Source of the DNA: Nitrospira sp.
GTDB taxonomy: Bacteria > Nitrospirota > Nitrospiria > Nitrospirales > Nitrospiraceae
Assembly: GCA_030123625.1 (NCBI GenBank)
Contig: CP126121.1
Location: 62,001-126,000 of the forward strand
DNA: 64,000 nucleotides
Direction of reading: 5' to 3'
Shown: positions 10,469 to 55,968 of the stretch, in pieces
Numbering within the stretch: position 1 is the stretch's first letter
Layout: the number at the start of each line of letters is the position of its first letter
Position numbers and translations under genes: made by a program
The notes under the pieces: model-generated
The model's database searches: none
Told to the model about the DNA's origin: nothing
Seen by the model: the letters and a program-made list of their open reading frames with translations, nothing else

Positions 10469-10525
10469 AGTAGCCGGCAAACATGGCGTGTGCTGAATTA
10501 TTGAGTGGCAAGACCGAATCTGCTC

Positions 10526-38555: not shown

Positions 38556-38600
38556 TTTTTTCAGTAGGTTAGCAACCTCACGAAAACCCCTTTCGGAAAA

Positions 38601-38622
38601 CGTAGTGAATAGCGTAGTGAAT
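38601..38622 (+). repeat. Arm-type direct repeats next to attL
   Basis: CGTAGTGAAT occurs twice, separated by AG. The same motif and variants (CGTAGGGGAAT) occur next to attR at 53110. Paired repeats inside both ends are what arm-type integrase binding sites look like. Confidence 0.5.
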
Positions 38623-38703
38623 CATTCCCGATTTACAGCGCGCATATTTGACGATATATGCCGATTGGCATAAAGTCCTACCTTCACTCGAAACCTTAAA
38701 CAA

Positions 38704-39225
38704 ATGACATCGGAAACGGATAATTTTTCATGGCTTATTAAAGCACGCACATCAAACCAGGAAGCCTTGTTACGACTCTACCGCCTCAATATCACCGATA
38801 ATTCAAACCCGGTCAGTCAGCAAACATATACTCTGCTCGTTGGTGCAGGCTTTTCGTTATGGCGTGCTGCATTTTTAAGTGATGTCACACGAGAAACTCA
38901 TAAGATTGCAGAGGATGCGAGAAAATTAATTAAGCGTCTCATTCAAGACAATTCCGTAGGCTATCCTCAAGACCGTGAGACACGCGAATGGATGGCTGGT
39001 TACTACATCAATAATGCAATATGGCGTCTTCTTATCGCGTGGAAATTTATCAAAGAAGAAGCCAATGAGCCAACGCCACAAGCCTTGGTGAGTCTAAAAG
39101 ACTTCGATGAACGTGGAGCGGAGAATGAATCACCTGTCGATCTATGGAATTCTTCGCACGAAGCCCTCTGTGCCATCTTGCATATTCTAGAAAGTAGGAC
39201 ACAGCAAACAAAGGCACTCGAATGA
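38704..39225 (+). CDS. Unrecognised cargo protein, first gene of a coupled pair
   Basis: 173 residues, mostly helical: FSWLIKARTSNQEALLRLYR, VSQQTYTLLVGAGFSLWRAA, NNAIWRLLIAWKFIKEEANE. The base composition is clearly more AT-rich than the flanking chromosome. The gene ends on the start of the next gene (ATGA), so the two are a unit. It lies between attL and the integrase, the usual place for cargo genes in satellites. No family recognised. An antitoxin or sensor partner of the HEPN-like second gene is a possibility only. Confidence 0.7.
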   Translation: MTSETDNFSWLIKARTSNQEALLRLYRLNITDNSNPVSQQTYTLLVGAGFSLWRAAFLSDVTRETHKIAEDARKLIKRLIQDNSVGYPQDRETREWMAGYYINNAIWRLLIAWKFIKEEANEPTPQALVSLKDFDERGAENESPVDLWNSSHEALCAILHILESRTQQTKALE

Positions 39226-39773
39226 CAGACTTTTCATCTAGTTTCCCAGGAACTGGAAGTTTAGCGCAACGATTGAGAAAAATTCTTTATCCCGACCTGA
39301 CAGATAACGAAGTAGAAACTATCACCGTATGCTTGATGTCGCATTTGCTAGTGGAGAGCGCTCTTAACGGCCTACTGTTTCGATGGTTACAACGAGACAC
39401 CGTGATGATAGGGAGTGCCAAAGCCTTGTACGAGGCGGAAGAAGTTTTGTGGAAGCAGATCGTGAAGATGGATTTTGCAAAAAAATATAGTCTGGTAGAG
39501 CCATTTTTTGCGATCTCTTTTTCTAAGGATGCTGTAAAAGATCCTTGGAAAATTAATGATCTTCGAAATGACCTATTCCACGGACGGGCTATTAAGGAAG
39601 CAAAATTCAAGGGAAAGTCAATATGCGAAGAGAGCACCGTTCAGGATATTTTTTTAGCCGCGCAATCCGCTAGAAATAACTTTGGAAGATTTGAAGAAAT
39701 GAAATACGCGCCACGCTCTCCCCTGCAAGGTTGGGAAGAATGGCTAAAAATGAAAGACGAAACTTCCTTATGA
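39222..39773 (+). CDS. HEPN-like protein, second gene of the attL cargo pair
   Basis: 183 residues, all-helical. Segment INDLRNDLFHGRAIKEAKF contains R-N-x-x-x-H, the RX4H pattern of HEPN ribonucleases, in the usual LRN...HG setting. The N-terminal helices (TVCLMSHLLVESALNGLLFR) also fit HEPN-type folds. HEPN proteins often act as RNases in toxin-antitoxin and antiphage systems, but many LRN...HG proteins are not proven enzymes. It overlaps its partner by 4 bases and converges with the integrase gene, overlapping it by 6 bases. Confidence 0.7.
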   Translation: MTDFSSSFPGTGSLAQRLRKILYPDLTDNEVETITVCLMSHLLVESALNGLLFRWLQRDTVMIGSAKALYEAEEVLWKQIVKMDFAKKYSLVEPFFAISFSKDAVKDPWKINDLRNDLFHGRAIKEAKFKGKSICEESTVQDIFLAAQSARNNFGRFEEMKYAPRSPLQGWEEWLKMKDETSL

Positions 39774-40946
39774 CGCAGGTACAGCTTCAATACTATGGAG
39801 CACGTTCAAGGAATGATCGGGATTATCGTTCGATACCGCAGGATCGGTGAAATGGACGAGCCGTTCAATCGCCTTTGTTTTATGCTGCGGGGCGAGGTGA
39901 GCGTACCGCATCACCATCGTTAAGTCAGCCCAACCGCCGAGTTCCTGAACAGTCCGAAGATCGACGCCTGCCATCACAAGCCGGGACCCAAAGGTGTGTC
40001 TGAGGTCATGGGGCCTGATCTTCGGGATCTTCGCCCGTTTCCACGCGTGTCTAAAGCTTGTCCCGATGTCGCTATAGGGAGTTCCATCCTTCTTCGCAAA
40101 TACGTACTCAGATGTTGCGGTCTCCTTCATCGCTTTTAAGGTGTTGAAGGCAATGGAATTCAAAGGCACATTCCGCGTATGACCATTTTTCGCATATCCC
40201 GATTCTACCGTTAAGAACCCTCGTTTCAAATCTACGCACTCCCATTTCAAGGTGAGAGCCTCGGCCTTGACCCTTAAGCCGGTATGGATGGCGATCAAAA
40301 TGAGTGAGCGTAAGGGTTCTTGCGCGGCTGAGAGTAGGCGAGTCTCTTCGGTGGGGTCGAGAAAACGGTCTTGATTACGTGGTTCCCTGCGGTACCGTAC
40401 CTTTTTCATAGGATTCTCGCCTTGGTATAGCCCCCAGGCGATACACTTATTAAACAGGACCTTCACCGTGGCAAGCTCGCGATTACAGCGGACCGGAGCC
40501 CCGCGCTTCGCAACGATGCGGCGTCGTTCCCACTCCTTATCGCTGATGTCCGAAGGCCGTTCGGTCAGTTCCCTGCCCTCCCCTCGCCGCTTCTTATACG
40601 CTTCCAGGCTCCAGGCCGTGATCTGGCTCAATCGCTTCCCGCTGAACTCCTCACTAAGATAGTCGAGACAGGCGGTGTACGTGCGGATGGTATTCGGTCG
40701 TTTCTCGCCTTTGATCCAGTCTTCGAATTTCTTCCGCGCCTCATCAAAGGTGAGATCTTTTTTCGATTTTCTTCCGATCCCGGCTTCCCCCCGAAGGATC
40801 TTCGCACGCTCAATCGCGGCCAACTCCAAGGCGACCGTGCGGGTGATCCCTCGGCCTAATCGTTTTTGGTAACGGGCGTGGTTGATGAAAATATCCAACC
40901 ACCAGGTCTTCCCCCGCTTATAAATTCCGTCACCGCGCCGAGGCAT
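39768..40946 (-). CDS. int: Tyrosine recombinase (integrase) of the island
   Basis: 392 residues from the ATG at 40946, which has GGAGGA five bases upstream; the longer frame to 41027 is not needed. The N-terminal part has an arm-binding-like region and a SAM-like core-binding domain (FEDWIKGEKRPNTIRTYTAC). The catalytic part shows R225 (HTGLRVKAEALTLKW), K253 region, H313-x-x-R316 (PHDLRHTFGSRL), W339 in place of the second His, and Y348 (VMRYAHLAP). All are compatible with activity. It would join the 48-bp att site in tRNA-Thr. Excision would need a directionality factor, perhaps the AlpA-like gene. Confidence 0.94.
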   Translation of the reverse strand: MPRRGDGIYKRGKTWWLDIFINHARYQKRLGRGITRTVALELAAIERAKILRGEAGIGRKSKKDLTFDEARKKFEDWIKGEKRPNTIRTYTACLDYLSEEFSGKRLSQITAWSLEAYKKRRGEGRELTERPSDISDKEWERRRIVAKRGAPVRCNRELATVKVLFNKCIAWGLYQGENPMKKVRYRREPRNQDRFLDPTEETRLLSAAQEPLRSLILIAIHTGLRVKAEALTLKWECVDLKRGFLTVESGYAKNGHTRNVPLNSIAFNTLKAMKETATSEYVFAKKDGTPYSDIGTSFRHAWKRAKIPKIRPHDLRHTFGSRLVMAGVDLRTVQELGGWADLTMVMRYAHLAPQHKTKAIERLVHFTDPAVSNDNPDHSLNVLHSIEAVPAS

Positions 40947-41103
40947 CGTGTCCTCCTTCGGTGAAGATCTGGTCGGCGACAGCATACGCCCGAGGGGCTG
41001 AGAGACCGGCGGCCCGGAGGAAGGCAAGACATTGAAAATAGTCGCGCTCCGATTCGGGGAACGCAGCGAGGTAACGGGCGGCCATCTCGGCGTCGTCGGT
41101 CAT
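40930..41103 (-). CDS. Small protein coupled to the XRE repressor
   Basis: 57 residues: MTDDAEMAARYLAAFPESER then DYFQCLAFLRAAGLSAPRAY and IFTEGGHDASAR. Its ATG overlaps the stop of the XRE gene (ATGA) and its end overlaps the integrase start, so it is the middle gene of an XRE-small-int operon. The helical composition suggests a small DNA-binding or adaptor protein. No family recognised. Confidence 0.65.
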   Translation of the reverse strand: MTDDAEMAARYLAAFPESERDYFQCLAFLRAAGLSAPRAYAVADQIFTEGGHDASAR

Positions 41104-41276
41104 TTCAGTAATTTTCCGAGTGGGACTTTCAGGGCCTTCGCCAATTTCTTCAACGTCGCCAATGAGGGATTCCGGCGCTTGCCGCGTTCGAGCATCGACA
41201 GGTACGGTTGCGACATTCCCGTTCGTTCGGCGAGTTGGGAGAGCGTGAGGTGATGGGTTTTGCGAAGGCGTTTCAT
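41100..41276 (-). CDS. XRE-family repressor of the island (likely leaderless)
   Basis: 58 residues from MKRLRK at 41276. A classic Cro/CI helix-turn-helix: LTLSQLAERTGMSQPYLSML, ERGKRRNPSLATLKKLAKAL. It probably represses the island's promoters. The -10 hexamer TATAAT lies seven bases before this ATG, so the message probably has no leader, as known for lambda cI from PRM. An ATG two codons upstream falls before the expected transcription start and is less likely. Confidence 0.88.
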   Translation of the reverse strand: MKRLRKTHHLTLSQLAERTGMSQPYLSMLERGKRRNPSLATLKKLAKALKVPLGKLLK

Positions 41277-41283
41277 AGCCATT

Positions 41284-41312
41284 ATTATAACTAGTAGTTA
41301 ATACCAATGGTA
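41284..41312 (-). promoter_or_regulatory. Promoter and possible operator of the XRE-int operon
   Basis: On the minus strand TTACCA and TATAAT are separated by 18 bases. The inverted repeat TACCATTGGTA (41302-41312) covers the -35 region and may be the repressor's own operator. Confidence 0.5.
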
Positions 41313-41338
41313 AGTTAGTAGATATACGTGCTGATGTG

Positions 41339-42787
41339 TTAATAAATTCCAAGCTGGCGCAACTTTTGTCGGCTGAGTGGGCGGCCTGTTCCTGTATCGT
41401 ACATTTGGACTTGGTGCCGACCTTGTTGAGAGCAGAGAGTGATGTTGCCGCAACAAGCATTCGCCAGGTCGTCCCTCCCTCCTGGAGGATGATCAATTGA
41501 GTCTTTGCCGCTGCGGGCGGTGCGGCGTTCAAGCTGCATCAGTTCAAGCGTGAGTGGTTGGATATCGAGCAGACTCAATGCCCCTTGCGAGAACAAGGGG
41601 AGGACTTCAAGATAGAGTTCTGATTTGGTCAGCTCGGAGTGTTGATACGTAATGCCATTTTTGTCGAAGGCCTCGCGGACCCATTCACCTGAATATCTGT
41701 CGCCAGTGACCGTGTAACAGCGATACGACTTAAGCAAATTGGAGAACTCTTTCGCCACGGCGCTTGGATCAAATGGTGGTTTGATACCTCGACAGACATC
41801 CAAGACGTATCGCTCACCTTCTGTATGTGCAATACTCAACGCGAACGAGTCGTGTACACCGCCTGACGGATCGCAAAAAGCGGTGTAGTGGTAACGGTCT
41901 TGGGGCGCACGCTCATGGCGTCCTCGCTCAATGGCTTGCTCGATGAGTTCATAATCCAAGAAAGTGCCCACGTCGCTCCGAAATTGCGCCAGGTATTCGG
42001 CGCTAGCCGCTGCCGGATCAAGTTCCATGGCACGGTCAATGATCGATTGCGGCACGCAGGGGTTCATTCGACGAGTCTCGGACTGGACTATCAAAACGCT
42101 CGATTCATCTTTTCCATAGTGGCGTTTATGCGCCTCGTAGAGAGGACCACTTCGCTTGTACGGAGAACTGAGACCGAGTAGGAGGGCTCCAGGAATCGTA
42201 GCCATGGCCGGCCGCAATGCAGCCAAGATTTCCTCGGCGGGATTGCTCGACTCTTCACTCCGCCAAAACGCAATTTCATCACACAGAGCAGCGAGCACCG
42301 TATAACCTCTGATCGTCCTGTATGAGGCCGTCATAATCTCAATGGTCACGCCGTTGGTCAGGTCAATCGACTCGGTGTCCTCGCGTTCGATCATTCCGGC
42401 CAGCATCGGTACAGACTGCAAGATGGCTTTGAGATACCGCATAATGATTCTGGACTGCTTTTTGTCGGTGGCAATGACCGGAATCACACCGCGTTCGCCG
42501 GGACCAAGGCAGGAACGATAATCTCGAAAGCACGCCAGGAAGGCGGCAATCAGAGCAACGATGAAGCTCTTGCCGCTCCGTCGTCCGCAAATGAGCCACG
42601 CTTCCGAGACTGGACCTGCAGGCGGATGCTGGCGTCCGGTGAGTTGCCGGAAGATGGAAAGATCCTCATCCGACATCGGCAGGCCAAAAATCGCTCGAAG
42701 CACGACAAGCCACGCCTGCCACGTTGCAAGATCTTTGAACAGCGGTCGGAGCAGCTTTGCATCGTGAATTGCGTCCAAGATGGTCAC
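41339..42787 (-). CDS. Phage terminase large subunit
   Basis: 482 residues from GTG at 42787, with GGAGGAG before it and six bases after the preceding stop. The ATPase part has Walker A GRRSGKS (68-74) and Walker B LAALCDEIAFW (D170/E171). The nuclease part has D306 in FCDPSGGVHDSFA, GDRYSGEW and GGRDDLANA near the end, the RNase H-like acidic residues. The enzyme packs DNA into empty heads. With no capsid genes in the element, it may redirect a helper's packaging. It looks complete. Confidence 0.92.
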   Translation of the reverse strand: MTILDAIHDAKLLRPLFKDLATWQAWLVVLRAIFGLPMSDEDLSIFRQLTGRQHPPAGPVSEAWLICGRRSGKSFIVALIAAFLACFRDYRSCLGPGERGVIPVIATDKKQSRIIMRYLKAILQSVPMLAGMIEREDTESIDLTNGVTIEIMTASYRTIRGYTVLAALCDEIAFWRSEESSNPAEEILAALRPAMATIPGALLLGLSSPYKRSGPLYEAHKRHYGKDESSVLIVQSETRRMNPCVPQSIIDRAMELDPAAASAEYLAQFRSDVGTFLDYELIEQAIERGRHERAPQDRYHYTAFCDPSGGVHDSFALSIAHTEGERYVLDVCRGIKPPFDPSAVAKEFSNLLKSYRCYTVTGDRYSGEWVREAFDKNGITYQHSELTKSELYLEVLPLFSQGALSLLDIQPLTLELMQLERRTARSGKDSIDHPPGGRDDLANACCGNITLCSQQGRHQVQMYDTGTGRPLSRQKLRQLGIY

Positions 42788-42791
42788 AACG

Positions 42792-43088
42792 TCACTCCTC
42801 CAAATTTCCACCTGCGTTTGCGAGCCGGATGCTCCAATCACGGAGCTGCGTTCTATCGCGGCTCTCAAGACGTCGCAGGATGACATCGTGGGTGTACCGT
42901 TGCACGTCGGCTGGTGAGTGCTCTGGGTATTGAATGCCAATCTCGCCTTGGAGATTCTTTTGTTGCTCGGCCAAATCAAGTTTGGTCTCTAGCGACGAGA
43001 CGATGAAGTTGAGTGATTCCTCGATAGCCTTCGTAAGAGCGGATTGCTGTTTTGCTAACTGGTTATAATTTTCGACGGCTGCACTCAT
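42792..43088 (-). CDS. Small coiled-coil protein upstream of the terminase
   Basis: 98 residues from the ATG at 43088, with AAAGGAG in front. A helical, Gln- and Glu-rich protein: YNQLAKQQSALTKAIEESLN, FIVSSLETKLDLAEQQKNLQ, then YTHDVILRRLESRDRTQLRD. It lies six bases before the terminase start, the place where small terminase subunits are usually encoded, but no HTH is evident. Function unknown. Confidence 0.7.
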   Translation of the reverse strand: MSAAVENYNQLAKQQSALTKAIEESLNFIVSSLETKLDLAEQQKNLQGEIGIQYPEHSPADVQRYTHDVILRRLESRDRTQLRDWSIRLANAGGNLEE

Positions 43089-43214
43089 TGGTTGCTCCTT
43101 TGTTAGATGAGGCGGAAATGTCCTGGCGTTTCCATAATGTCTCCTTTGGCCTAACTTCGGCGAGGCACCCCACCGGGGCAACCTCGCCTGGGCCGGGGCA
43201 GGCCTGCCGCGACT

Positions 43215-43916
43215 TTACGTTGACGCCCCAGCAAGTTGAGGCACGTCGGCTATGTCCGCACCCAAATTGTCACGAAGGATTTTAGGTTCCACGCCGATTT
43301 CTTCCGACAACCATTTGCTGATCCAATCTCGGATCATCACGAGAAATTCCAATAAGAGTTCGGCCTGCTCAAGGTTCGTGTGATCTTGCGGTCTGAGACG
43401 CGCGGCCCGTTCAAACAAGACTCGTTCTTTCACGTCCTGCGGGACCATTTCGCCTTCCGGATGACTTAACATCGCGGCCAACGTCTTCACTTCGTCTTTT
43501 TCGCCAGCCAGCGCAAAGCGTTTGGTGCGACCGTTAGGGTCGAGCACGTCCAGCTTTTGCCAGAGATAAATGAACGTCGAGATACGCTCTGCTGGGTCCT
43601 TGATCGTTGAGTCGACTGCGAGAAACTCTGACCGGAGGCGCTTGACCTTTGCCTCTAAGTCCTCGATCTCCTTCTTCTGCCACTTCAAATTCTTGATGGT
43701 CTCGTCGATGGCATACTTTTTCAGCTTCTCCCTCTGCCCTTGTTGACTCAAGCCAAGATTCGCCATAATTTTATGGTCTTCGCGCTGGAACTCTTCTAAG
43801 AGCGTCTTTGTGTCGCGGATGTGCGTCCGCTTGGTATTGAAGGAGTCAGTGGTCAGCCCGGTATTGCGTGCCATCTCCGTGTCCAATGCGCTCGTGATCC
43901 GTACTGGCGTTGACAT
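43215..43916 (-). CDS. Coiled-coil protein of unknown function (island)
   Basis: 233 residues, highly charged and helical: NTKRTHIRDTKTLLEEFQRE, KKYAIDETIKNLKWQKKEIE, DLEAKVKRLRSEFLAVD. A long coiled coil spans about 55-100, and the second half has GEKDEVKTLAAMLSHPEGEM. No family recognised. It starts three bases after the preceding gene's stop, so it is part of the same transcript. A scaffold or DNA-binding role is conceivable but not supported. Confidence 0.7.
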   Translation of the reverse strand: MSTPVRITSALDTEMARNTGLTTDSFNTKRTHIRDTKTLLEEFQREDHKIMANLGLSQQGQREKLKKYAIDETIKNLKWQKKEIEDLEAKVKRLRSEFLAVDSTIKDPAERISTFIYLWQKLDVLDPNGRTKRFALAGEKDEVKTLAAMLSHPEGEMVPQDVKERVLFERAARLRPQDHTNLEQAELLLEFLVMIRDWISKWLSEEIGVEPKILRDNLGADIADVPQLAGAST

Positions 43917-43919
43917 TGT

Positions 43920-44360
43920 TTATTCTCCTTTACTGGGTTGTGGCTCCGTTGATTGAGGAGCCTGTTGTAGAGCCGTGGGCTCCAGTTGTTTGCGTGCTTC
44001 AATGTATTCGTGTAGGGGTGGAATCTTTTTCGCCCGACGTCGCAATCCGATCTTCGACAAGAGACCGGCTAATGCGTTTATGGACGCGATGTACGCGTGT
44101 ACTTCCACTGTCCCGCCTTTCGCCACGATCAATTCCATTCGCTCGATATGTCGTTCCAGAAAAACAATTCGTTTGCATAGCGATTGTTCTTGAAACGAAA
44201 GGCTCTCAAGTCCACCGAGATCCGAGGCGAGGGCGTTGAACCGTTCGTGGAGTGCTTTCACCGCGGTGACTCGTCCGTCCATCTTTTGGATAAAGTCCGC
44301 TCGATACCGTTTGGAGATGTCGGTCGGTTTTGTTCCTATTCCACTATTCTTCCCGCCCAT
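43920..44360 (-). CDS. Island protein starting MGGKNSG, unknown function
   Basis: 146 residues: MGGKNSGIGTKPTDISKRYR, FIQKMDGRVTAVKALHERFN, then RIVFLERHIERMELIVAKGG. Helical middle and a Pro/Gln-rich tail. Genes opening with MGGKNSG or similar are common just before terminase genes in phages, where some are small terminase subunits. The resemblance here is limited to the opening. It overlaps the preceding frameshifted gene by 17 bases. Confidence 0.65.
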   Translation of the reverse strand: MGGKNSGIGTKPTDISKRYRADFIQKMDGRVTAVKALHERFNALASDLGGLESLSFQEQSLCKRIVFLERHIERMELIVAKGGTVEVHAYIASINALAGLLSKIGLRRRAKKIPPLHEYIEARKQLEPTALQQAPQSTEPQPSKGE

Positions 44361-44759
44361 CGTTTTCCCTTCGCCGAGCTACAATTTCCCTACGGCATTC
44401 ACTACGCTCGGCCAAAATGCGTGCTAAGTCGTTGAGATTCTTAGACCAAGGTGCGGTCTTAAGAACCTCCGGTCGATAACATATTGTTGGGCGATACGAG
44501 GCTTCCTTCGAACTGCGCTCGTCTCGCACCTCCTGCAATGGTTTAAGCGGCTTAACGGGCTGGTCCTTCGCACCTTCCTTCCATCCGGCTTCGATCCTAA
44601 TGGGGGAAGTACGGGGAAATACGGGAAGTGGGTTCTTAGGGTTCTTTGGGCCTGTTCTATCCGTGCCCGGGTTATAACTGTCTTTTTGGAAAATCCAGTT
44701 TCGACCCGAGATCTACGGTAAAACGCAAAAGAACACACTTTTCGGGCTTTTTTTGTCAC
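44344..44759 (-). pseudogene. Frameshifted small gene between primase and MGGKNSG gene
   Basis: A GTG at 44759 overlaps the primase stop (GTGA) and opens a frame beginning MTKKARKVCSFAFYRRSR. After about 44,712 a different frame has the stronger coding character: NWIFQKDSYNPGTDRTGPKN, PIRIEAGWKEGAKDQPVKPL, then ARILAERSECRREIVARR to a stop at 44344. This second frame has no ATG or GTG for 170 bases, so the two halves are probably one gene broken by an indel. A run of seven As near the start is error-prone. Function unknown. Confidence 0.45.
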
Positions 44760-47527
44760 AAAGAACCCACTTCCTTCTCCCGCCTCTTTACTTCATACCG
44801 CGCCAGACCGTTTTTCATCGTCCGGTCGAGGTATAAAACGACTCCCCACTCGTTCACCGCATTCCGCCCCAAGAGTCTCGATAGGGCATGTCCCACCGAC
44901 CGCTCACTTTTAATGTCTTTCACCCGTAGGGCTAAGAGGGTTTCCCTCAAAATCGGGTCCGGCCCGAACCATTGCTCAGACCCCTCGGCGGCACGTCGTG
45001 GATTCGCATCCGTGACAAGATCACTGGCGCTGAATTGCTTGCCGTCGTACAAATGACGTAAGTGGTGCAGCAGCGCCCGATGGGCGCCGAGTTCCGGCGA
45101 GGTCTCAATGTTCATATCGAACACCGTGCCCACATCCTCCTGCCCGGACCAAAGCAAGGGATGCCGAACCAGCCGGTCCCACTGGGGAAAACGGGATGGG
45201 GCAACCTGAACCGGTTCGTTGTGTGTGAGGTATCCGGCAATCACTCCAATGACGTGACGGAGAACCACGTCTCGAATCTCTAAGGCGTGGCGGATGAGAT
45301 CGGGATAGGTGAATTGTCGCTTATGGGGACTGACTTCTTTCGTCGTGAGTCGAATCGGAATAAAACGGGACGCTTCGTCATTCGACAATGTCACGTTGTT
45401 GCCCGTCAGGATAAAGACGACACTCGTCGATACCACCGCGTCACGATTATGCCCAAGCAACCGACCTTGCTTTGTGGCCGAGGTCATCGCGGCCGACAGG
45501 GCGGGTGAACGAAAAGACATTCCATCGCCGCAATTATCAAAGGTCACCACCTCTGGACTCCGTAGCAACGTCGACAAAAGAAGTTTTTGTACTTCCACAT
45601 CATCGTCCGGCCACGTAAAGATCGGCGCATCCGTGCCAGTCACGGCGCAATGAATTTTTCTTGCCAAACTTGTTTTGCCGCTACTTTGTGTCGAGGCCGT
45701 AATCAAAAACCCCGGGGACATATCCATTAACTTCCGCTCGACTATCGTGAAAAGCAGCGCAAGAGCTGCCGCGATATCCAAGCCAGATGCAAACTCAAAT
45801 CCATCAAAAAGATCCCGCACGATGTGGTCAACCGCTTCGCGGGCTTCCGCTTGGGAATACGGGCGAAGTCCTTCGATGTGAGGACCGTAAAGAAAAAGGC
45901 CAGTGGTCGGGTCAATTCCTGAAGCCGCGATAATTTCCCCAGTTCGAATGACCTGAGGATGGGCCGAGAGGCCAATAACAGTTCGGATGAAGCGCGGATT
46001 GACCAGGATCTGATCCAGGATACTGTGCGGCACGCCGATTAGTGTGGAACCGGATTCAGTGAAGATCTGGAGAACCGTCGCGCGTTCAACTAGCGGAAGC
46101 AGTTTGGCCCTGGTCATCAAATCGAGTTGGCCGGTTGGCACTGAAGAGACATCGCTATCCGCTTGGTGCGTATGCGGAAGGGTTTGCCGACAAAACCGCA
46201 CGACGCTGTCGCCAAATCGGACACATTCCCCTTCGGTGAGTCGTGCCACCATCGCCGCTTCCACTTGGTGGGCGACGTCGCAGACATCTTCGGGGCGAAA
46301 CTCGATAATGGTCCGGCGCCCAATGCGCTGCTGGGCGGCCTCCCGTTTTTTCTGTTCGTGCTCTTCGCGCAGCCTGGCTTTGAGCAGATTCACGCCGGTG
46401 CCGAGGAGCCGCGCAAGTTCCGTCAAGACCGTGTGGCGGTCTTCCGCATTCAGCCCCCTCACATAGTCCTTCCAGGTGGCCTTAAGGTCGTCGATGGACA
46501 AGGCACGTAGTTTCGCTAATCGCTCGGCCACGGTCAGAGGGGCTTGGTAAGTCTCCGTTACAGTGGCGCACGCGTTGGCGATACATTCCGCCCCATAAGT
46601 GCTCTCATTCCGCCGTTCATCCCATTTCTCCCGCATCAGCTTACTCTGACGAAACATTCGATCCATTCGTTCGGGATTGCGGCCATACCAGTATGCGAGA
46701 TAACAACACAAGGCGCTGTCTGCTTCCGATTGGGATGGGTAGTCGCCGATCCAATCACCCGCCCATAGCTTCTTGATCTTCGTACCGTTCTTTGAGCCAA
46801 AGGCACGCGCCAATTGCGTCTCATCATCCTCGGGAATAGGCTCGGACGGCTTTTCCGTTTTCTTGGTTTCTTCTAAAGGCACCAATACCGACTCAAGCCC
46901 GTTCACAATAGCGCCGGTTCCCCCGGGAACCGCTCTGACGAGGACTGGTTCGAGCGAGCGACCAGCTTTGGCCTTCTTAGCGTTGGGCCAGTTCAACGTC
47001 CCATCGATACGCCAGACGTGGGCAATATCACCCGTTCCGGCATCGCATTTGGCTGTCAATTGCAGGCGCTTGGCGAGCGTCTCCGCGTGCGCAGCGTCCG
47101 ATGGATCGAGAAAGTAGCCGGTTTGAAAACGGCCTGGAGAGCTTTCGAGCGCATAACTCGGCGCAAGGGGAACTCGGTTTGGCCAATCCACAGCATTGGC
47201 ATCATCGTAATCAGCAACCAACCCGAGCACCGCTACAATATCTTCCTTACCTCCTCGGCTCCCTATAGGCAGATTGGGGCGCATCAGAACGAGGGCGGTA
47301 TAGACATTGACGTGGGGCAGGACCGTCCATTCCATTGTCTGCTCGACCATTCGGCTCACATCCCCAATGGGAAAGGGTTTGATCCTCGACGGGAGCTTCT
47401 TGCCGGAGGACGGATTTTGGCCATAGGCGACCAGCACCAGCTCTCCTTCTACCTCCGCTGCTTTGGCGCGCGTATGGATCATCTCCACAAACGAGGTAAT
47501 CGCCGCTCGGTTAGGAGTTGCGCTCAT
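44756..47527 (-). CDS. Primase-helicase with NrS-1-like domain
   Basis: 923 residues from the ATG at 47527 (GGAG six bases before). The N-terminal archaeo-eukaryotic-type primase has the acidic motif VADYDDANA (D106, D108) and HVWRIDGTLNWPN like the RxPGT motif of RepB/PriS-type primases. Residues 262-320 (EADSALCCYLAYWYGRNPER to STYGAECIANAC) resemble the helix-bundle domain of the NrS-1 phage polymerase. Walker A TQSSGKTS is at 613-620, with Walker B VVTFDNCGD. It should prime and unwind at the island's origin for autonomous replication, the role of Rep/Pri in satellites. Confidence 0.85.
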   Translation of the reverse strand: MSATPNRAAITSFVEMIHTRAKAAEVEGELVLVAYGQNPSSGKKLPSRIKPFPIGDVSRMVEQTMEWTVLPHVNVYTALVLMRPNLPIGSRGGKEDIVAVLGLVADYDDANAVDWPNRVPLAPSYALESSPGRFQTGYFLDPSDAAHAETLAKRLQLTAKCDAGTGDIAHVWRIDGTLNWPNAKKAKAGRSLEPVLVRAVPGGTGAIVNGLESVLVPLEETKKTEKPSEPIPEDDETQLARAFGSKNGTKIKKLWAGDWIGDYPSQSEADSALCCYLAYWYGRNPERMDRMFRQSKLMREKWDERRNESTYGAECIANACATVTETYQAPLTVAERLAKLRALSIDDLKATWKDYVRGLNAEDRHTVLTELARLLGTGVNLLKARLREEHEQKKREAAQQRIGRRTIIEFRPEDVCDVAHQVEAAMVARLTEGECVRFGDSVVRFCRQTLPHTHQADSDVSSVPTGQLDLMTRAKLLPLVERATVLQIFTESGSTLIGVPHSILDQILVNPRFIRTVIGLSAHPQVIRTGEIIAASGIDPTTGLFLYGPHIEGLRPYSQAEAREAVDHIVRDLFDGFEFASGLDIAAALALLFTIVERKLMDMSPGFLITASTQSSGKTSLARKIHCAVTGTDAPIFTWPDDDVEVQKLLLSTLLRSPEVVTFDNCGDGMSFRSPALSAAMTSATKQGRLLGHNRDAVVSTSVVFILTGNNVTLSNDEASRFIPIRLTTKEVSPHKRQFTYPDLIRHALEIRDVVLRHVIGVIAGYLTHNEPVQVAPSRFPQWDRLVRHPLLWSGQEDVGTVFDMNIETSPELGAHRALLHHLRHLYDGKQFSASDLVTDANPRRAAEGSEQWFGPDPILRETLLALRVKDIKSERSVGHALSRLLGRNAVNEWGVVLYLDRTMKNGLARYEVKRREKEVGSL

Positions 47528-47918
47528 CGACGGCTCCACGTCCCGCGTGGCGCGAACAAATAGCGTCCATCGTCGAGTGACATCGCCATATCGATGTTCA
47601 GCTCCTTCGCGACTTTGACCAACGTTCGCTGTTCATCCTCAACGACAATCGGCTCCGAAAGAGCCACTCTTGGCCCTCGACCGAGCCCCAGTGCATCTGC
47701 CAGTGCTTCATAAACGACAGCCGGAAGAGAGCGTCCCAATGCGTCGGACACCATTCTTGGGCAAAGCGTTCTCTGTAGGGCGTCAGGAGGATTTCCAGCC
47801 AGCGCGGCATCCGACCGACGAGAACCGGCAGGATCAAATTCACGCGGATCATTCGACCGCGCTGAGTGACGATGGGGATATGTTCGCTTTTTTGAATCGG
47901 CTGGCGTAAAGTTTCCAT
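47524..47918 (-). pseudogene. Small gene with a probable frameshift
   Basis: The ATG at 47918 has AAAGGAG seven bases upstream and opens METLRQPIQKSEHIPIVTQR, then LEILLTPYRERFAQEW. From about 47,750 this frame turns into a Trp/His/Met-rich shadow. The neighbouring frame continues naturally with SLPAVVYEALADALGLGRGP, ALSEPIVVEDEQRTLVKVAK and ends on the primase start (ATGA). One indel near 47,750 would join both. Two overlapping genes are the alternative, but the second has no ribosome binding site. Function unknown. Confidence 0.55.
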
Positions 47919-47971
47919 TACACACTCCTTTGTACGAGCCGCGTCGGGGTCATCGTCCTGGCGCGGCTAAA

Positions 47972-48193
47972 TCATCGTTGTCGAGCCTTCCAATTAAGTT
48001 CAGCTTCAACAGCGCTCGTTCCCGGAAGACTTTTGAGAAATCGATCCAGTTCAGTTTTTTTAAAGACCAGTCGTTTGCCAATTTTTTGCCATGGGATGAG
48101 ACGGCGAGCGACCTTGTGCCGTACGGCTTTGGTGGAACAGTTCAACAACTCCGCAACCTGCGCCACATCATAAAAAATGGCCTTATCGCCCAT
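47972..48193 (-). CDS. AlpA/excisionase-like HTH protein
   Basis: 73 residues with a winged-helix DNA-binding pattern of the MerR/excisionase (HTH-17) type: FYDVAQVAELLNCSTKAVRH, KVARRLIPWQKIGKRLVFKK, TELDRFLKSL. Such AlpA-like proteins activate satellite and prophage gene expression or act as excision factors. It overlaps the preceding HTH gene by 11 bases and lies upstream of the primase operon, a fitting place for an activator. Confidence 0.82.
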   Translation of the reverse strand: MGDKAIFYDVAQVAELLNCSTKAVRHKVARRLIPWQKIGKRLVFKKTELDRFLKSLPGTSAVEAELNWKARQR

Positions 48194-48383
48194 GACGGTG
48201 CTCCGCGAGAACGCCCAGAATGCGAAGCTTCACCGCTGCAGGCATCGCCACCCTTTCGCGGAGCATATTGCTCAAAGATGCCGGATGGACTCGAATCCGG
48301 GCCGCGAGGATATACAGTGGTTGGCGCCAATGCCGGGTAATTTCAACGCGAAGTTCAGTTGCCGATATGCCTGTATTCTGCAT
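48183..48383 (-). CDS. Small HTH protein of the island control region
   Basis: 66 residues: ISATELRVEITRHWRQPLYI, LAARIRVHPASLSNMLRERV, AMPAAVKLRILGVLAEHRHG. The central part fits a Cro/CI-type helix-turn-helix (recognition helix around VHPASLSNML). It overlaps the AlpA-like gene. It could counteract the XRE repressor or set early gene expression. Confidence 0.65.
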   Translation of the reverse strand: MQNTGISATELRVEITRHWRQPLYILAARIRVHPASLSNMLRERVAMPAAVKLRILGVLAEHRHGR

Positions 48384-48428
48384 ATCGGGACTCTAACGAA
48401 TTTTTAGTTTTAAGGAAAAAAAGAAAGG

Positions 48429-48455
48429 CTCGGTAAAACCGAGAGTATCTTTTTT
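48429..48455. terminator. Bidirectional hairpin terminator
   Basis: CTCGGT-AAA-ACCGAG (48429-48443) is followed by a T run on the plus strand (48450-48455), and on the minus strand by TTTCTTTTT. For the minus strand it ends the transcript of the gene at 48499-48834. Confidence 0.6.
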
Positions 48456-48498
48456 GGGGCCCGCCCCCTAGGAGAGCGGACCCCGAAGGTGTGACGAC

Positions 48499-48834
48499 TT
48501 AGGAGTGGTCGTCAGCGAGGCGATGCGGACGCACGCGGATGGCCGACACCCGTTCGCCGTTATACTCGACGTTTTTGTCGATAAACAGCGCGATGCGCTG
48601 GCCAACCCAGTCGTCCATCTCATACCCGAATAGGCCGACAACTACATTGCCGTTGCCGACATTTAACGCAAAGCCCTTCTCCAGTTCTCTGAACCAGAGA
48701 ACCGGTTTCTTCGCAGGCTTCGCGCCGTACTTGAGATCCTCTTCGGTAACCGATTGAATCGTGACGACGGTGTCCCGATCCGTTGGCAGATCAGTGGCCC
48801 GAAGAAGCGTGATAGGTGGTTTGTAAATAGCCAT
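48499..48834 (-). CDS. Phage-type conserved protein, possible ssDNA-binding-like
   Basis: 111 residues from the ATG at 48834 (TTGGAGGA eight bases before). Text: MAIYKPPITLLRATDLPTDR, KPVLWFRELEKGFALNVGNG, GYEMDDWVGQRIALFIDKNV, YNGERVSAIRVRPH. The WVGQRIALF...VRP pattern occurs in small phage proteins near recombination or replication genes. A single-strand-binding or annealing-helper role is possible from that context only. It has its own transcript ended by the hairpin at 48429. Confidence 0.65.
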   Translation of the reverse strand: MAIYKPPITLLRATDLPTDRDTVVTIQSVTEEDLKYGAKPAKKPVLWFRELEKGFALNVGNGNVVVGLFGYEMDDWVGQRIALFIDKNVEYNGERVSAIRVRPHRLADDHS

Positions 48835-48922
48835 TACGTCCTCCAATGTTTGACGCTGCACCTATTGCAACGCCTTCTGGAGGAACTATGTCACGCGCTG
48901 ATCGAGCCAGGATAAAAAGGAA

Positions 48923-49579
48923 CTATGCCGCTCGACGAGACTTTCTTTTTCGGACCGGAAAGAAAGTGGTGTGCCGCTCAGAGTAGGCGGAATATATGGA
49001 GGAACGAAGCGATTTCATCTCAACAAGCCGTACCGGAGCGATACAGGCGACTGCAAATTTATGGAAGTTGCCGATGTAAAGATCGTCAGCATACGCGTTT
49101 GGAGAAAACTGAGGCATAATTCCTGTGGCGTCCTCAAAAATGCTCAGGAGCAGATTGACCGCACGATGGATCGCGTAGTTTTTTAACTTTCCGGTCTTCT
49201 GAAGGTTTACGTGAAAATTAGGTTTCTCTGCCGCTTGCCGCACAGTAGTTAAGCCTCTGCCGAAGAGGGAAGGCCAATCCATCCGGTCCTGGTCATCAAG
49301 GTGCCACTGCTCACGTACTCCAAGCGCCTCATAAGCCTGGGCTGCCATTTCCAGCCCTTTAATAATGTTTCTATAATGGTGGGCCCTCTTGCCCGAATAG
49401 GCCACGGCGCCTGGGACTAAAGTACCCTCCGACAAGTCCACCATCGTGGTGCTGATAATAAAAAGAATGCGGTCCCAGCTAACGTCAGCCTTCAACCCTG
49501 CTTTCTTCAAGGCCTGATAGATGGCCTTCTCTTCTTGCTTGGAGTATCCAGTTTCGTGGAACGGCTTTGCTTGGCGCAT
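48923..49579 (-). CDS. Unrecognised 218-residue island protein
   Basis: Soluble mixed protein: TGYSKQEEKAIYQALKKAGL, DRILFIISTTMVDLSEGTLV, GKRAHHYRNIIKGLEMAAQA, NYAIHRAVNLLLSIFEDATG, with a basic tail FFPVRKRKSRRAA. No family recognised. It is transcribed divergently from the TIR gene with 237 bases between, so it may share control with it. It could be cargo. Confidence 0.65.
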   Translation of the reverse strand: MRQAKPFHETGYSKQEEKAIYQALKKAGLKADVSWDRILFIISTTMVDLSEGTLVPGAVAYSGKRAHHYRNIIKGLEMAAQAYEALGVREQWHLDDQDRMDWPSLFGRGLTTVRQAAEKPNFHVNLQKTGKLKNYAIHRAVNLLLSIFEDATGIMPQFSPNAYADDLYIGNFHKFAVACIAPVRLVEMKSLRSSIYSAYSERHTTFFPVRKRKSRRAA

Positions 49580-49816
49580 CTGTCTCCTCCAGCGGTGTTG
49601 CTATTCGCACAGGCAATTGGATAGACAAAATCGATTCATCACGAACGCCCCGTATCACCCCGCTCGACTATACGCCGATTCTGGGATCTTGCGCTATCCT
49701 TCATTCGCACATACAATTACTTTTCCGTTTTGGAGGCCTATGGTCTTCTCAATTCCTCCACACCCCATTCGTTGCTTCTCGACATTAGTCTTCACACTTG
49801 AGCCAAAGGGGAAAAC

Positions 49817-50670
49817 GTGACAGCCTCGACCAAAGACATTTTCATTTGTCACGCGAGCAAGGATAAAGAAAAGGTAGCCTTCCCTCTGTTTCGAGCGTTT
49901 GAAGATTCCCAGATCTCCTGTTGGTACGACGAGGCAGAAATTCGATGGGGAGATAGCATAACCGAGAAGGTTAATCACGGGATGCGAATCTCAACATATG
50001 TCCTGGTCGTGCTGAGTCCAGCCTTCTTGGAAACGAGTTGGCCACAACGCGAAATGAATGCAGCATTAAACGTGGAGGCCTCATCAGGTGATGTAAAAGT
50101 ACTTCCCTTAATCGTAGGCAATGCTCAAGAGAGAGAGACAATTATCAAGCAATATCCTCTACTGAATGACAAATACCACCTCCCTGGAATGGCCAAGTTG
50201 AGCCAATAGTTCAAGCGCTTCAGGCAAGACTTAATCGCAAACCGGAATCAACATCCAGCCGTTCTCCTCAAACCAAACCAAGCCGAAGTATACCGATGCC
50301 TAAAATTCAGAGGGACTTTACTCAATTTGAAAAAGACACTTTTCTCCGTGAAGCTTTTTCATCGGCGGAGGATTATTTCCGGACGGCGCTTGCCAATCTG
50401 AAACGCGAAACAGTAGACGTTGAAACGGACCTAAATGAAATTCATAAATATAAGTTTATCTGTACCGCCTATATCAAAGGTGAATCGTATTCAGACTCTG
50501 ATAACTCAATGAATGATTGGCTGACTGTGAAAGACGACGGGCAGCAGTTGGGCTTTGAGACTTCAGGTATGTGGTTTAAGGCTGACTATTCAGGGCGAAA
50601 CTTTCTTACCGTTGAGGAGGCGTCGGAGTATTTATGGCGAAGGTTTACGGATAGATTGACAAGGAGGTAG
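49817..50670 (+). pseudogene. TIR-domain gene split by one frameshift
   Basis: Start is GTG at 49817 with AAGGGG upstream. The first 130 residues are a TIR domain: KDIFICHASKDKEKVAFPLF, ISCWYDEAEIRWGDSITEKV, VLVVLSPAFLETSWPQREMN, with E in the WxxxE position expected for NAD hydrolases. A stop at 50207-50209 ends it. From about 50,203 another frame runs on without a break (VQALQARLNRKPESTSSRSP) into the piece starting MPKIQRDFTQFEKDTFLREA and ending SEYLWRRFTDRLTRR. This C-terminal part is typical of one TIR family. So one gene was cut by a single-base change. TIR proteins act in antiphage defence. Confidence 0.8.
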
Positions 50671-50672
50671 CC

Positions 50673-50825
50673 ATGGTTAAGGCGAGCTATTTCTGCCGTC
50701 GATGTGGGGCAAAATTCAGCATTGATGTTTTCGAGGAAGGTGAAGCTGAAGAAAAAAGAATACCCTCTGGACCCGTGAGATGCAAAGATTGTGGTGGTGG
50801 TGGTGATCTAGAGCGTCGAGGTTAA
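50673..50825 (+). CDS. Small zinc-ribbon protein coupled to the TIR gene
   Basis: 50 residues with two CxxC knuckles (YFCRRCGAKF at 6-15 and VRCKDCGGGG at 35-44), a zinc-ribbon layout. The AAGGAGG ribosome binding site lies over the last codons of the TIR gene, two bases before the ATG, so both are translated together. It is too short for standard gene finding. A regulator or partner of the TIR protein is possible. Confidence 0.75.
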   Translation: MVKASYFCRRCGAKFSIDVFEEGEAEEKRIPSGPVRCKDCGGGGDLERRG

Positions 50826-50883
50826 TCGAGGTTGATTGATTCGATACATGTCTTACCCCATGGCTCGCGCGGCTACGTCGTCA

Positions 50884-51369
50884 TTAGAGGGGCCGTTTCA
50901 ATAACGCCTCAGACAAATATCCCTCAAGTCGGGCGTCATTCAACTCTTTCGTGAGGCACAGGATGTCGTCAGACAGCCTCTTCAGGTCCCTGGACGTAGG
51001 CAAGGGCTGCCAACGGTGATCCTCGCTTTTTTGACATGCGTCTCCGTCGAGTTCTTTCCCCACGACGCTATGTACATAACTATTCCGCTTTTCGGTTGCC
51101 CTCCTGCAGCGTTCGATGATGGCCTCAAGCTTGAGTAGAACCTGCCCTTCGCCTAGTCTTTGTTTAGCCAATTTGCGGATACGGCCTCGGAGATTTGAAG
51201 CACCCTCATAGGCCGTCGCATCTAACGCTTCGTTTACTTCTAAATTTGCAAGTGTCTTTATCGTCATGCGCAGAGCATGATTTAAGTGCTCATGCCGTAA
51301 GGTAAGTTCACCGAACGCTGCGAGAAGTGTTTGGTCCTCGGGGACATCAAGCATAATCATTCTTTCCAT
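50884..51369 (-). CDS. HEPN-like small protein near attR
   Basis: 161 residues from the ATG at 51369, with AGGAGG in front. Helical: LTLRHEHLNHALRMTIKTLA, ASNLRGRIRKLAKQRLGEGQ, then RATEKRNSYVHSVVG. The RNSYVH segment fits the RX4H pattern of HEPN domains. The setting in a long helix after ERCRRATEK is right for such folds, but this pattern alone is weak evidence. It is convergent with the zinc-ribbon gene. It could be cargo or a toxin. Confidence 0.6.
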   Translation of the reverse strand: MERMIMLDVPEDQTLLAAFGELTLRHEHLNHALRMTIKTLANLEVNEALDATAYEGASNLRGRIRKLAKQRLGEGQVLLKLEAIIERCRRATEKRNSYVHSVVGKELDGDACQKSEDHRWQPLPTSRDLKRLSDDILCLTKELNDARLEGYLSEALLKRPL

Positions 51370-51538
51370 AGAACCTCCTGATCGTCGTACGGTTAGATTT
51401 CGGGGCATCCAAGTGTGTCAGAGGATTGGTTCCGTGATCTACCTGCCGAATCAGACCCAGTGCAACCCCCAATTGACAGCATCTCTGCTAGGTTTAACGT
51501 AGAATTTTGACCGACAGACACATGAAAAGGAGGGCGTG

Positions 51539-51685
51539 ATGATAGGACTCTTGATCGCAGCGCTAGAAAGTGTACGCGGCAGGACCAAGCGCCAAGTGGA
51601 ACAAGCCAAAGCGGACGAGTTGAAGGCGGAACTGGAACGAGCGAAGGGCGATGCCGAGCAAGAGAAGGGCGAAGCGAAAGACTAG
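51539..51685 (+). CDS. Short Lys/Glu-rich peptide
   Basis: 48 residues starting MIGLLIAALESVRGRTKRQV and continuing EQAKADELKAELERAKGDAE, a charged single helix likely to form a coiled coil. AAAAGGAGGG lies six bases before the ATG, which is the main evidence for coding. No family. Confidence 0.5.
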   Translation: MIGLLIAALESVRGRTKRQVEQAKADELKAELERAKGDAEQEKGEAKD

Positions 51686-51812
51686 AATCAAAACGTTCGA
51701 TTCTCGCCCTCAACGCACTCGTCCCCAAAGAGTTGGCTCAGGCCAGTAATCTTCTCCTTGACATCCTCGCCGCATCAGCTCAGAGTGCAACTCTACTTTA
51801 ATCCACATCTGC

Positions 51813-51866
51813 CGACGGCCTCCTGTAAGGCCTGACCGCCGTCTTGTGTGAGAAAGGCGGTCACCC
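51813..51866 (+). promoter_or_regulatory. Structured leader element, copy A
   Basis: A first small stem GGCCT/AGGCC is followed by a stem TGACCGCC/GGCGGTCA with loop containing TGTGAGAAA, ending three bases before the ATG at 51867. The only Shine-Dalgarno-like bases (AAGGCGG) lie in the 3' arm. A second copy precedes the gene at 52694. Confidence 0.6.
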
Positions 51867-52190
51867 ATGGCAGATGTTCCACGTGTATCAGCGCGTAATC
51901 TCATCCCTGACTCCACCGTCAAACCGCTCTCGATCAGTGAGAAACGTCGAGTTTCTAGAGACGCGATACAACGCCTTGAGCACATTGTCACCGTCCAAGA
52001 GGATCGTGTGAAGACGATGCGGCATCGGTCAATAGGAAGTCCCTCCCTCACACGTCGACTGCAAGTGCTTATGAAGGAGAATCTCATCACCTATAGGAAC
52101 ACCCTTCAGTATGTGCGACAGACAGCGGAAACCCTCGAAGTTTGTTGGTCTGCGATAGAGAATGGAAATTCTCTACCTGATACTGAATAG
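51867..52190 (+). CDS. Small helical island protein with structured leader
   Basis: 107 residues: VSARNLIPDSTVKPLSISEK, RRVSRDAIQRLEHIVTVQED, LTRRLQVLMKENLITYRNTL, QYVRQTAETLEVCW. It is rich in Arg and helices; a DNA- or RNA-binding role cannot be excluded. The leader element directly before it is shared with the gene at 52694, although the two proteins are not visibly related. No family recognised. Confidence 0.6.
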   Translation: MADVPRVSARNLIPDSTVKPLSISEKRRVSRDAIQRLEHIVTVQEDRVKTMRHRSIGSPSLTRRLQVLMKENLITYRNTLQYVRQTAETLEVCWSAIENGNSLPDTE

Positions 52191-52204
52191 CGAGGAGGAG
52201 GCCA

Positions 52205-52489
52205 TCACCCTGATTTTCGAGCAATCCCGCGCCTCGGTACACGAGGCTTGCGAGTAGATTTTCGAACGGACGCAGTGACGAGAGGAAAGCCTGAAGAGAG
52301 TTTTAACGAGGTATGTTTTCTCTTCCATGTATCAAGAAACGTCACCAATCCAGTTATGGTTACCTCGACCGAACTCAAGTCTTGGTCTGTGAGTTCGCGA
52401 CCTTGTTGTAAATAGGCCTCCAGCGGCGAACATCCCTTCATAAACGTCGCGATCATTTTTTGGGTTGCGAGATACTGCGGCTTGGCCAT
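52205..52489 (-). CDS. Small protein related to the one at 61509
   Basis: 94 residues from Met at 52489: YLATQKMIATFMKGCSPLEA, YLQQGRELTDQDLSSVEVTI, then LVTFLDTWKRKHTS and a basic tail. The pattern QK...FM...SP..A.L..G..LT...L.S....L.T....W.RK recurs in the protein at 61509-61754 outside the island, so these are paralogues. The start has no clear ribosome binding site. Function unknown. Confidence 0.55.
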   Translation of the reverse strand: MAKPQYLATQKMIATFMKGCSPLEAYLQQGRELTDQDLSSVEVTITGLVTFLDTWKRKHTSLKLSSGFPLVTASVRKSTRKPRVPRRGIARKSG

Positions 52490-52640
52490 GCGATGGAGTA
52501 TGACGTGCGCGGGAACAAGATTGCTAGATGTTTTTCCGGAACGCCTCACTAAGCCGTGGACCGAATCGCCCTTCCGTAGGCATTGACACGTCCGGGGCTG
52601 GCGAGTAACATCGCCTACCTCACATCTCTAACCCACATTG

Positions 52641-52693
52641 CGACGGCCGCATGGATGGCCAGTCCGCCGACTTTGTGAGAAAGGCGGACCGCT
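52641..52693 (+). promoter_or_regulatory. Structured leader element, copy B
   Basis: Shares CGACGGCC, CCGCCG and TGTGAGAAAGGCGG with copy A. The main stem is GTCCGCC/GGCGGAC. Compared with copy A one base pair is swapped (A-T to T-A) while pairing is kept, a sign that structure is selected. It ends four bases before the ATG at 52694. Confidence 0.6.
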
Positions 52694-53035
52694 ATGCTAC
52701 GGCTTCGTAGAGAGATCAGCGACTATTCACGTTCTTGCGAGCATCTCATTTCCGCAGCAGCAGCTTCCGATGCCGTTCCCTTTACTCAGGACGAGATTGA
52801 TTGGATCGAGTACTATGCTACGGAGATGACCAACCTGGTCGATCAACTCGTGCGGAAATCTAAAACGCAGGTTTACCACGACCGCCAAACAATCCAAGCG
52901 TTCGCCATCGCCTCCGAGGCGTTATTCCTCACGGATAGTCTTTCGAATGGGGAGCGAGACAGCATCCGGCAATCGGTCTCCGATATCACGACACAGATTC
53001 TGGATGAAAACAAAGATCCAGCCTTGGAGGCGTGA
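52694..53035 (+). CDS. Small helical island protein with structured leader
   Basis: 113 residues: LRLRREISDYSRSCEHLISA, FTQDEIDWIEYYATEMTNLV, DQLVRKSKTQVYHDRQTIQA, SNGERDSIRQSVSDITTQIL. Acidic and helical. It is the last gene before attR and is preceded by leader copy B, which would hide the start site. No family recognised. Confidence 0.6.
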   Translation: MLRLRREISDYSRSCEHLISAAAASDAVPFTQDEIDWIEYYATEMTNLVDQLVRKSKTQVYHDRQTIQAFAIASEALFLTDSLSNGERDSIRQSVSDITTQILDENKDPALEA

Positions 53036-53109
53036 TTCACGCCACCAACGCAATCGTCACGGTTGGGTTAAACCGTGACCCAATCCCCTCCCCGCACATC
53101 GAAAAAAAG

Positions 53110-53170
53110 CGTAGTGAATAGCGTAGGGGAATTGTAGGGGAATCTCGGGGTAATGCGGGGAAATACGGGG
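53110..53170 (+). repeat. Arm-type direct repeats next to attR
   Basis: Consecutive variants CGTAGTGAAT, CGTAGGGGAAT, TGTAGGGGAAT, then CGGGG-type units. The first is identical to the repeat pair at 38601-38622. They lie 80 to 140 bases inside attR, suiting arm-type integrase or excisionase sites. Confidence 0.5.
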
Positions 53171-53250
53171 TATACCTACCAACACGAAATCGTCAGTCTA
53201 GACGCGGTGATTCGAGCGTTTTCAGGGGGTTACGAAGACCCTGCCCGGAA

Positions 53251-53298
53251 GGTTTTGTAAACCGCAGGTTGGAGGTTCGATTCCTCTCGCCAGCTCCA
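53251..53298. repeat. attR: 48-bp attachment repeat
   Basis: Perfect copy of the 3' 48 bases of tRNA-Thr (38508-38555), without the 5' half, so not a functional tRNA. It marks the right end of the island. Confidence 0.93.
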
Positions 53299-55548: not shown

Positions 55549-55830
55549 ACTGTCCGGCCAGGTTGGTCTAGGTGTTTCCTTTGCCGCCCGGTTGGTGGGT
55601 CAGCTAATTAAGGCCCGAAGGTTGAGGGTACCCCTCACCGACTGAGGCAAAAAGCGTCAAAAACGTTCTAGAATCCGCAGTGAGATCGTGCAGGACAATA
55701 TGCCACCTAGGGATTGAGAGCATGGACATCCGTTGCCATGGAGGTATCCTGTGCAGTCTACGATTGACCCACATCGTGCCGACGGGACAGGAGAGCCGCC
55801 GCCGACATCGGGCGAGAAGGAAGGTGACCG

Positions 55831-55968
55831 ATGACTGTATCCCCCAACCATCTTCAGAACTTTCTCCAATGGCGTCACAATCCACTGGCGAGAGCCGCCG
55901 TGTTGTACGTGACAGGCGTCATTGGCGTCCTAGTCTTCAGTTATTTCGTGACACGATCGTGGTATTAG
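55831..55968 (+). CDS. Small single-pass membrane protein
   Basis: 45 residues: a hydrophilic start HLQNFLQWRHNPLARAA, then one membrane span (VLYVTGVIGVLVFSYFV) and TRSWY. GAAGGTGA lies five bases before the ATG. Too short for standard gene finding. No family. Confidence 0.5.
   Translation: MTVSPNHLQNFLQWRHNPLARAAVLYVTGVIGVLVFSYFVTRSWY

Follow-up and report, generated by a model that had tools for sequence, protein, structure and literature searches.

A structured leader with the Shine-Dalgarno sequence in a start-codon stem, found before unrelated genes in Nitrospiraceae

In a Nitrospira genome, the last two genes of an integrated island, both small, are preceded by copies of the same short structured leader, in which the Shine-Dalgarno (SD) sequence lies in a stem next to the start codon. 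We found that these two copies belong to a wider leader family, which is a real feature of the genomes that carry it and is probably a translational switch. The explanation that we lean towards, with some reservation, is that of a cis-acting 5' mRNA leader that would control translation through the SD stem, a pseudoknot and a trans-acting factor, and would belong to a host regulon that the island has borrowed.

Leader copies in the island and in its genome

The window, meaning the whole 64,000-nucleotide stretch of DNA that we analyzed, contains a 14.8 kb integrated island. Both of its ends are marked by a 48-base direct repeat, found at the 3' end of the tRNA-Thr (38508-38555) and again at 53251-53298. 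The island includes an integrase-like ORF on the minus strand (39768-41027), named by eye, an ORF of 927 aa (44756-47539) with an NrS-1 polymerase HBD domain (E 7.3e-29) that encodes a primase-polymerase-like replication protein, and an ORF with a TIR domain (49817-50209; Pfam TIR_2, E 3.1e-20) that is perhaps part of a defence system. After the two leader genes, no further gene precedes the right end of the island. A search of plasmids with 51740-53060 gave no match.

Copy 1 (51803-51866) and copy 2 (52633-52693), both on the plus strand, were identified by direct reading, by folding and by a covariance model match. In copy 1, CACA (51804-51807) is followed by a GGCC hairpin (51817-51820 with 51829-51832) and by an SD stem of 8 pairs, TGACCGCC (51833-51840) with GGCGGTCA (51856-51863), which ends 3 bases 5' of the ATG at 51867. 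Copy 2 has CACA at 52634-52637, the GGCC hairpin at 52645-52648 and 52657-52660, and an SD stem of 7 pairs, GTCCGCC (52662-52668) with GGCGGAC (52683-52689), with TGTG at 52674-52677 and the ATG at 52694, 4 bases from the stem. An A-T pair in the copy 1 stem is T-A in copy 2, so the pairing is kept. The only SD-like purine stretch close 5' of either ATG is AAAGGCGG (plus strand, 51853-51860 in copy 1), which lies within the loop and 3' arm, and thus only partly inside the arm. On these points, namely the common sequence, the stems of 7 to 8 pairs ending 3 or 4 bases before the ATG, the swapped pair and the position of the only ribosome-binding-like bases, our direct reading agrees with an earlier sequence-only reading of this DNA. 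That reading was right that both copies exist and misplaced their boundaries, since the element starts at CCACA (51803 and 52633), about 10 bases earlier than it had proposed.

The 14-mer TGTGAGAAAGGCGG occurs with zero mismatches only in copies 1 and 2 in the whole 4.69 Mb genome. The pattern GCCGNCTTNGTGAGAAAGGCGG, allowing up to 3 mismatches, has one match in the window, which is copy 2, versus none in 100 of 100 shuffles; it misses copy 1, where the loop is one base longer. Folding energies of 64 bases give z = -3.2 for copy 1 and -1.8 for copy 2, which are modest values taken alone. A closing helix over the start codon of copy 1, CATCTGCC with GGCAGATG (51807-51814 with 51868-51875), is strong in that copy; we left it out because inspection did not show it in the other copies.

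A third copy, which the sequence-only reading overlooked when it counted two, is found outside the island at 55769-55830 on the plus strand. It is altered: its stem is rearranged and its SD-like AAGGAAGG is predicted to be mostly open (predicted pairing 0.27), so the SD stem is not kept, an exception within the leader family. A promoter-like TGGACA, 16 bases, TATCCT lies upstream of this copy, and behind it is an ORF for a putative 45-aa membrane peptide (55831-55968, plus strand). According to model R2, described below, the genome carries six copies: those at 51803, 52633 and 55769 of the window, and G000:576899 (minus strand), 1648762 and 1651356 (both plus strand). Four of the six lie outside 38508-53298. 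The switch had been proposed to belong to the island, and we reject an island-specific switch because the copies are spread over chromosomes.

Spread, layout and structure of the leader family

Model R1, built from nine leaders of the own genus only, gave 47 matches in 14 of 79 genomes of the genus, and model R2, built from 27 sequences, had matches in 12 of the 79. As a covariance model, R2 gave matches at 61 places, spread over 18 of the 175 family genomes, with copies also before unrelated genes, which does not fit the island-only use supposed in the sequence-only reading. In the phylum sample, R2 matched 15 of 395 genomes (3 of 169 genera), all 15 of them in the own family, Nitrospiraceae, so the leader family is found here only in Nitrospiraceae. 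Although it is a genus-only model, R1 recognises a copy in genus g21 with E 1.1e-22. The exact core pattern was found in 8 genome-contig stretches, all titled Nitrospira MAGs, in a set that possibly does not include the genome of the window.

We judged some of the 47 R1 matches doubtful and left them out of alignment A5 and of the sources for alignment A6. These were L057, L058, L065, L069 and a group of four (L078, L079, L063 and L055) that have a leader-like match (GTGAGAAAGGTGGTC or similar) with their own TTTGACAGTGCC upstream and no ATG at the usual spot, apparently one conserved place in four genomes. Of the 55 rows of A6, 52 remain after removal of L113 (truncated), L116:1201 (partial) and L103 (doubtful), and these reduce to 40 non-redundant leaders below 90% identity, which underlie the counts out of 40 given below.

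The conserved order of parts is promoter, CACA, TGCCG, GGCC hairpin, ACCGCC, TGTGAGAAA, GGCGGT, a few bases and the start codon. The promoter is sigma70-like: TTGACA, 16-18 bases and TANNNT or CANNNT occur in 28 of the 40 leaders, and in 26 of the 40 within -51 to -42 of the leader start, where shuffled sequences give a mean of 1.4 and at most 5 (200 trials). Upstream of copy 1 it reads TTGACA, 17 bases, CAGAGT (51758-51786, plus strand), and upstream of copy 2 TTGACA, 17 bases, TAACAT (52583-52611, plus strand). The hairpin segment contains GGA in 34 of 40 leaders, compared with 14.6 and at most 22 in shuffles, and in 22 of the 40 the GGA is wholly inside the predicted apical loop. Loop bases, including those of TGTGAGAAAGGCGG, are conserved beyond what pairing needs.

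The SD stem covaries. Of 39 sequences, 30 form its outermost pair, with five pair types (18.7 expected), and 37 of 40 form the next one (31.2 expected), numbers that 0 of 5000 shuffles reach in either case, while the central pairs hardly vary at all. When the arms were dealt anew among the sequences, P was <0.0002, and 0.0004 when this was done within the two leader types (stratified); kinship among the copies can inflate these and the P values that follow. Further copies with compensating changes, on which the sequence-only reading had staked its proposal, were found, and found in the stem that holds the SD. Copy 3 excepted, the stem that contains the SD next to the start codon is conserved and covaries.

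Pairing between the 5' CACA and the TGTG in the loop of the stem would make the leader a pseudoknot, which is supported but not secure. With narrower segments, P was 0.0004 free and 0.003 stratified; the stratified value becomes 0.043 without L108 and L115, and 0.115 without L105 too. A first test, which used wider segments and left out only L113 and L116:1201, gave 0.062, 0.065 and 0.049, and the narrower segments were picked after its result was known. The signal is weaker than that of the SD stem and comes largely from two variants with both sides changed, L108 with CAGGTGCC/GGCACCTG and L115 with CATATG/CATGTG, both instead of CACA/TGTG. In four controls with a wrong partner P was 0.78 to 0.82, and two of them redone in strata gave 0.70 and 0.48. 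We found no covariation in the short hairpin (P 0.36 and 0.12), and RNAalifold on A5 returned 4 pairs only, with almost no covariation. We also considered a second state formed by a competing GNCGG/CCGNC helix and dropped it (P 0.36 and 0.37).

On average the 40 leaders fold only a little more stably than their shuffled versions (mean z = -0.97), and the SD is predicted paired at 0.90 on average versus 0.80 with the 5' part shuffled. For predicted pairing with the 16S tail, the median over the 40 leaders is -11.6 kcal/mol, with -9.3 in copy 1 and -7.5 in copy 2, and seven leaderless relatives of the 113-aa gene behind copy 2 range from -8.4 to -13.2 kcal/mol. In their ability to pair with the tail, the SD-like bases of the leader are thus roughly on a par with the SDs of leaderless relatives.

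The conservation of promoter and leader together at a fixed distance would also be expected of a constitutive cassette, in which the structure would govern the stability of the message or hold translation at one level with no switching, and the failure to find a second state is in line with this. However, the loop bases conserved beyond the pairs suggest that a partner binds there or that the RNA has a tertiary fold, and we consider such a cassette unlikely, though worth keeping in mind.

Comparison with known leaders

Searched against the 4227 families of Rfam 15 at the gathering cut-off, the window matched tRNA-Thr only. A permissive Rfam scan of the 161 bases surrounding copy 1 gave one chance match (SOX2OT, E 4.3), and one of the same length at L076 gave none. 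In these searches the leader could be assigned to no named family, and preQ1-II, SAM-II, ROSE and fourU are all included in the Rfam set. The portions of the Nitrospira literature on riboswitches, RNA motifs and pseudoknot or SD leaders available to us contain no report of it.

The preQ1-II and SAM-II riboswitches are H-type pseudoknots that mask the SD, with the SD in the 3' strand and an A-rich loop. Our leader resembles them in being a short 5' leader with a candidate pseudoknot layout that shares both of these features; it differs in having no Rfam match and in that the genes downstream do not belong to one metabolic pathway. Leaders autoregulated by ribosomal proteins are likewise structured and control initiation by masking, but there is no ribosomal-protein gene behind any leader that we saw.

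Leaders controlled by CsrA/RsmA share with most of ours a GGA in an upstream hairpin segment, and because GGA is enriched we found CsrA attractive as the regulator. In contrast to such leaders, the SD of most of our leaders, AAAGGCGG, contains no GGA, nor does the hairpin of copy 1. CsrA was detected in 15 of the 18 leader-bearing family genomes and in 128 genomes overall, and we disfavour it as the regulator because G247 (99% complete, one contig), G419 and G441 carry the leader without detected CsrA.

RNA thermometers such as ROSE and fourU also hold the SD inside a short stem, and here heat would melt the stem adjoining the start codon and free the SD. RRM genes, which are cold-inducible in cyanobacteria, lie near some of the leaders and could be taken to fit. 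Against this, the stem is G-C rich, there is no Rfam match, and the loop sequence is strongly conserved, unlike the loops of known thermometers; we give a thermometer little credence and favour a bound partner over it because unpaired bases are conserved. The conservation of TGTGAGAAAGGCGG beyond structure might instead reflect one small RNA that pairs with the loop and SD of all its targets. We think this a shade less probable still, since pairing to one small RNA does not favour covariation between the stem arms.

Genes behind the leader and a possible regulon

The 107-aa ORF behind copy 1 (51867-52190, plus strand) has a relative in G247 that also has the leader, and the 113-aa ORF behind copy 2 (52694-53035, plus strand), predicted helical, has relatives with the same leader in G057, G007 and G115. 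There is no BLASTP similarity between the two proteins, consistent with the sequence-only reading, which called the genes unrelated. Matches to the 113-aa protein, of which many are weak and N-terminal, occur in 8 of 98 genomes, and viral contigs gave no relative of this protein. Its close relatives in G057 and G007 carry the leader (L029 of G057 is degenerate), G057 also has leaders in tandem, and relatives elsewhere have plain SDs and no leader. Its predicted fold has three helices (mean pLDDT 73.5, pTM 0.36) and no match in the PDB with E below 1.

By inspection, what follows the 40 leaders is a gene of the 62-aa family in 10 cases, one of the 113-aa family in 5, a looser relative of these in 4, a short or broken frame of the 62-aa or 113-aa kind in 5, a receiver-type gene in 7 and another kind of gene in 9. 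A receiver domain scores above the Pfam cut-off at L102, L105, L112, L115, L064 and L096, and below it at L068. The others include 45-aa membrane peptides; outside the 40, L111 precedes a CMD-family protein. The genes behind the leader thus do not form one family, and their products include receiver-domain proteins and a membrane peptide as well as small helical proteins. The 62-aa family seems to multiply and decay: at L077, L083, L085, L087 and L110 (G057 and G115), leaders stand before shortened or frameshifted copies of the gene. In G057, MEDS-domain genes (L042:7042-7608 and 9892-10488) are directly behind two leader genes, and at L086 in G115 there is a protein similar, by eye, to MEDS-domain proteins.

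These genes bear on whether the leader is merely dragged along with gene duplication and has no function as RNA. By inspection, the genes behind 24 of the 40 leaders do belong to the 62-aa or 113-aa kind, are looser relatives of them or are broken frames of that kind. Yet unrelated genes also have the leader, related genes occur without it, and the SD stem covaries, which makes duplication a very improbable explanation. Hardly credible is an attC-like recombination site, folded as single-stranded DNA: the element is repeated, structured, beside small genes and sometimes in tandem, but it sits almost always on the coding strand, directly 5' of a start codon and behind a promoter, and its exact core has no match in viral contigs.

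RRM genes are found near leaders at G000 (1649024; L088:2242-2511), at G057:C1:200101-200310, with the same place in G115, and at G419:C224:3686-3895. There are 25 RRM matches in 7 genomes, and all 7 leader-bearing genomes examined have them. RRM RNA-binding proteins are a possible partner or target of the leader, which we offer as a lead only; the binding by an island or helper protein proposed earlier has no protein implicated in it.

Returning to translational control by a cis-acting leader, we envisage the following. Transcription would start some 5-15 bases upstream of CCACA, judging by the position of the shared sigma70-like promoter. The RNA would form the short hairpin and then the stem of 6-8 pairs, whose loop and 3' arm, close to the start codon, would bury AAAGGCGG, one base away from AAAGGAGG, and the 5' CACA would pair with TGTG in the loop of the stem to give an H-type pseudoknot. 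The folded leader would hide the SD, and a trans-acting factor, most likely an RNA-binding protein, would shift the balance of folds, thereby setting the output of a regulon that comprises receiver-domain proteins, small helical proteins and others. Two genes on the island would make use of this host control. Masking of initiation is the simplest reading of an SD held in a conserved stem at the 5' end of a message with a fixed promoter. Observations that count against this explanation are the modest folding energies, the few RNAalifold pairs, the lack of covariation in the hairpin, the dependence of the pseudoknot test on segments and rows, the several leaders that precede broken frames and the stem that is not kept in copy 3. 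Because the same stretch precedes many small and signalling genes across Nitrospira, the leader looks to us like a switch of an undescribed family that would be used cell-wide and not by the island only.

More tentatively, and at odds that we put below even, the leader may represent an undescribed class of pseudoknotted, SD-masking RNA restricted to Nitrospiraceae, which would coordinate a genome-wide regulon of orphan receiver and small helical proteins through one trans-acting factor, with the nearby RRM proteins or a small ligand as candidates, and into which cargo genes of a mobile island would have been plugged. Among the Nitrospira are the complete ammonia oxidisers as well as major nitrite oxidisers, and to our knowledge little is recorded of post-transcriptional control in them. 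With a leader common to unlinked signalling genes, a regulon could be delimited from sequence alone; such a leader would also give a handle on the signal to which that regulon responds, and would show a mobile island using the translational control of its host.
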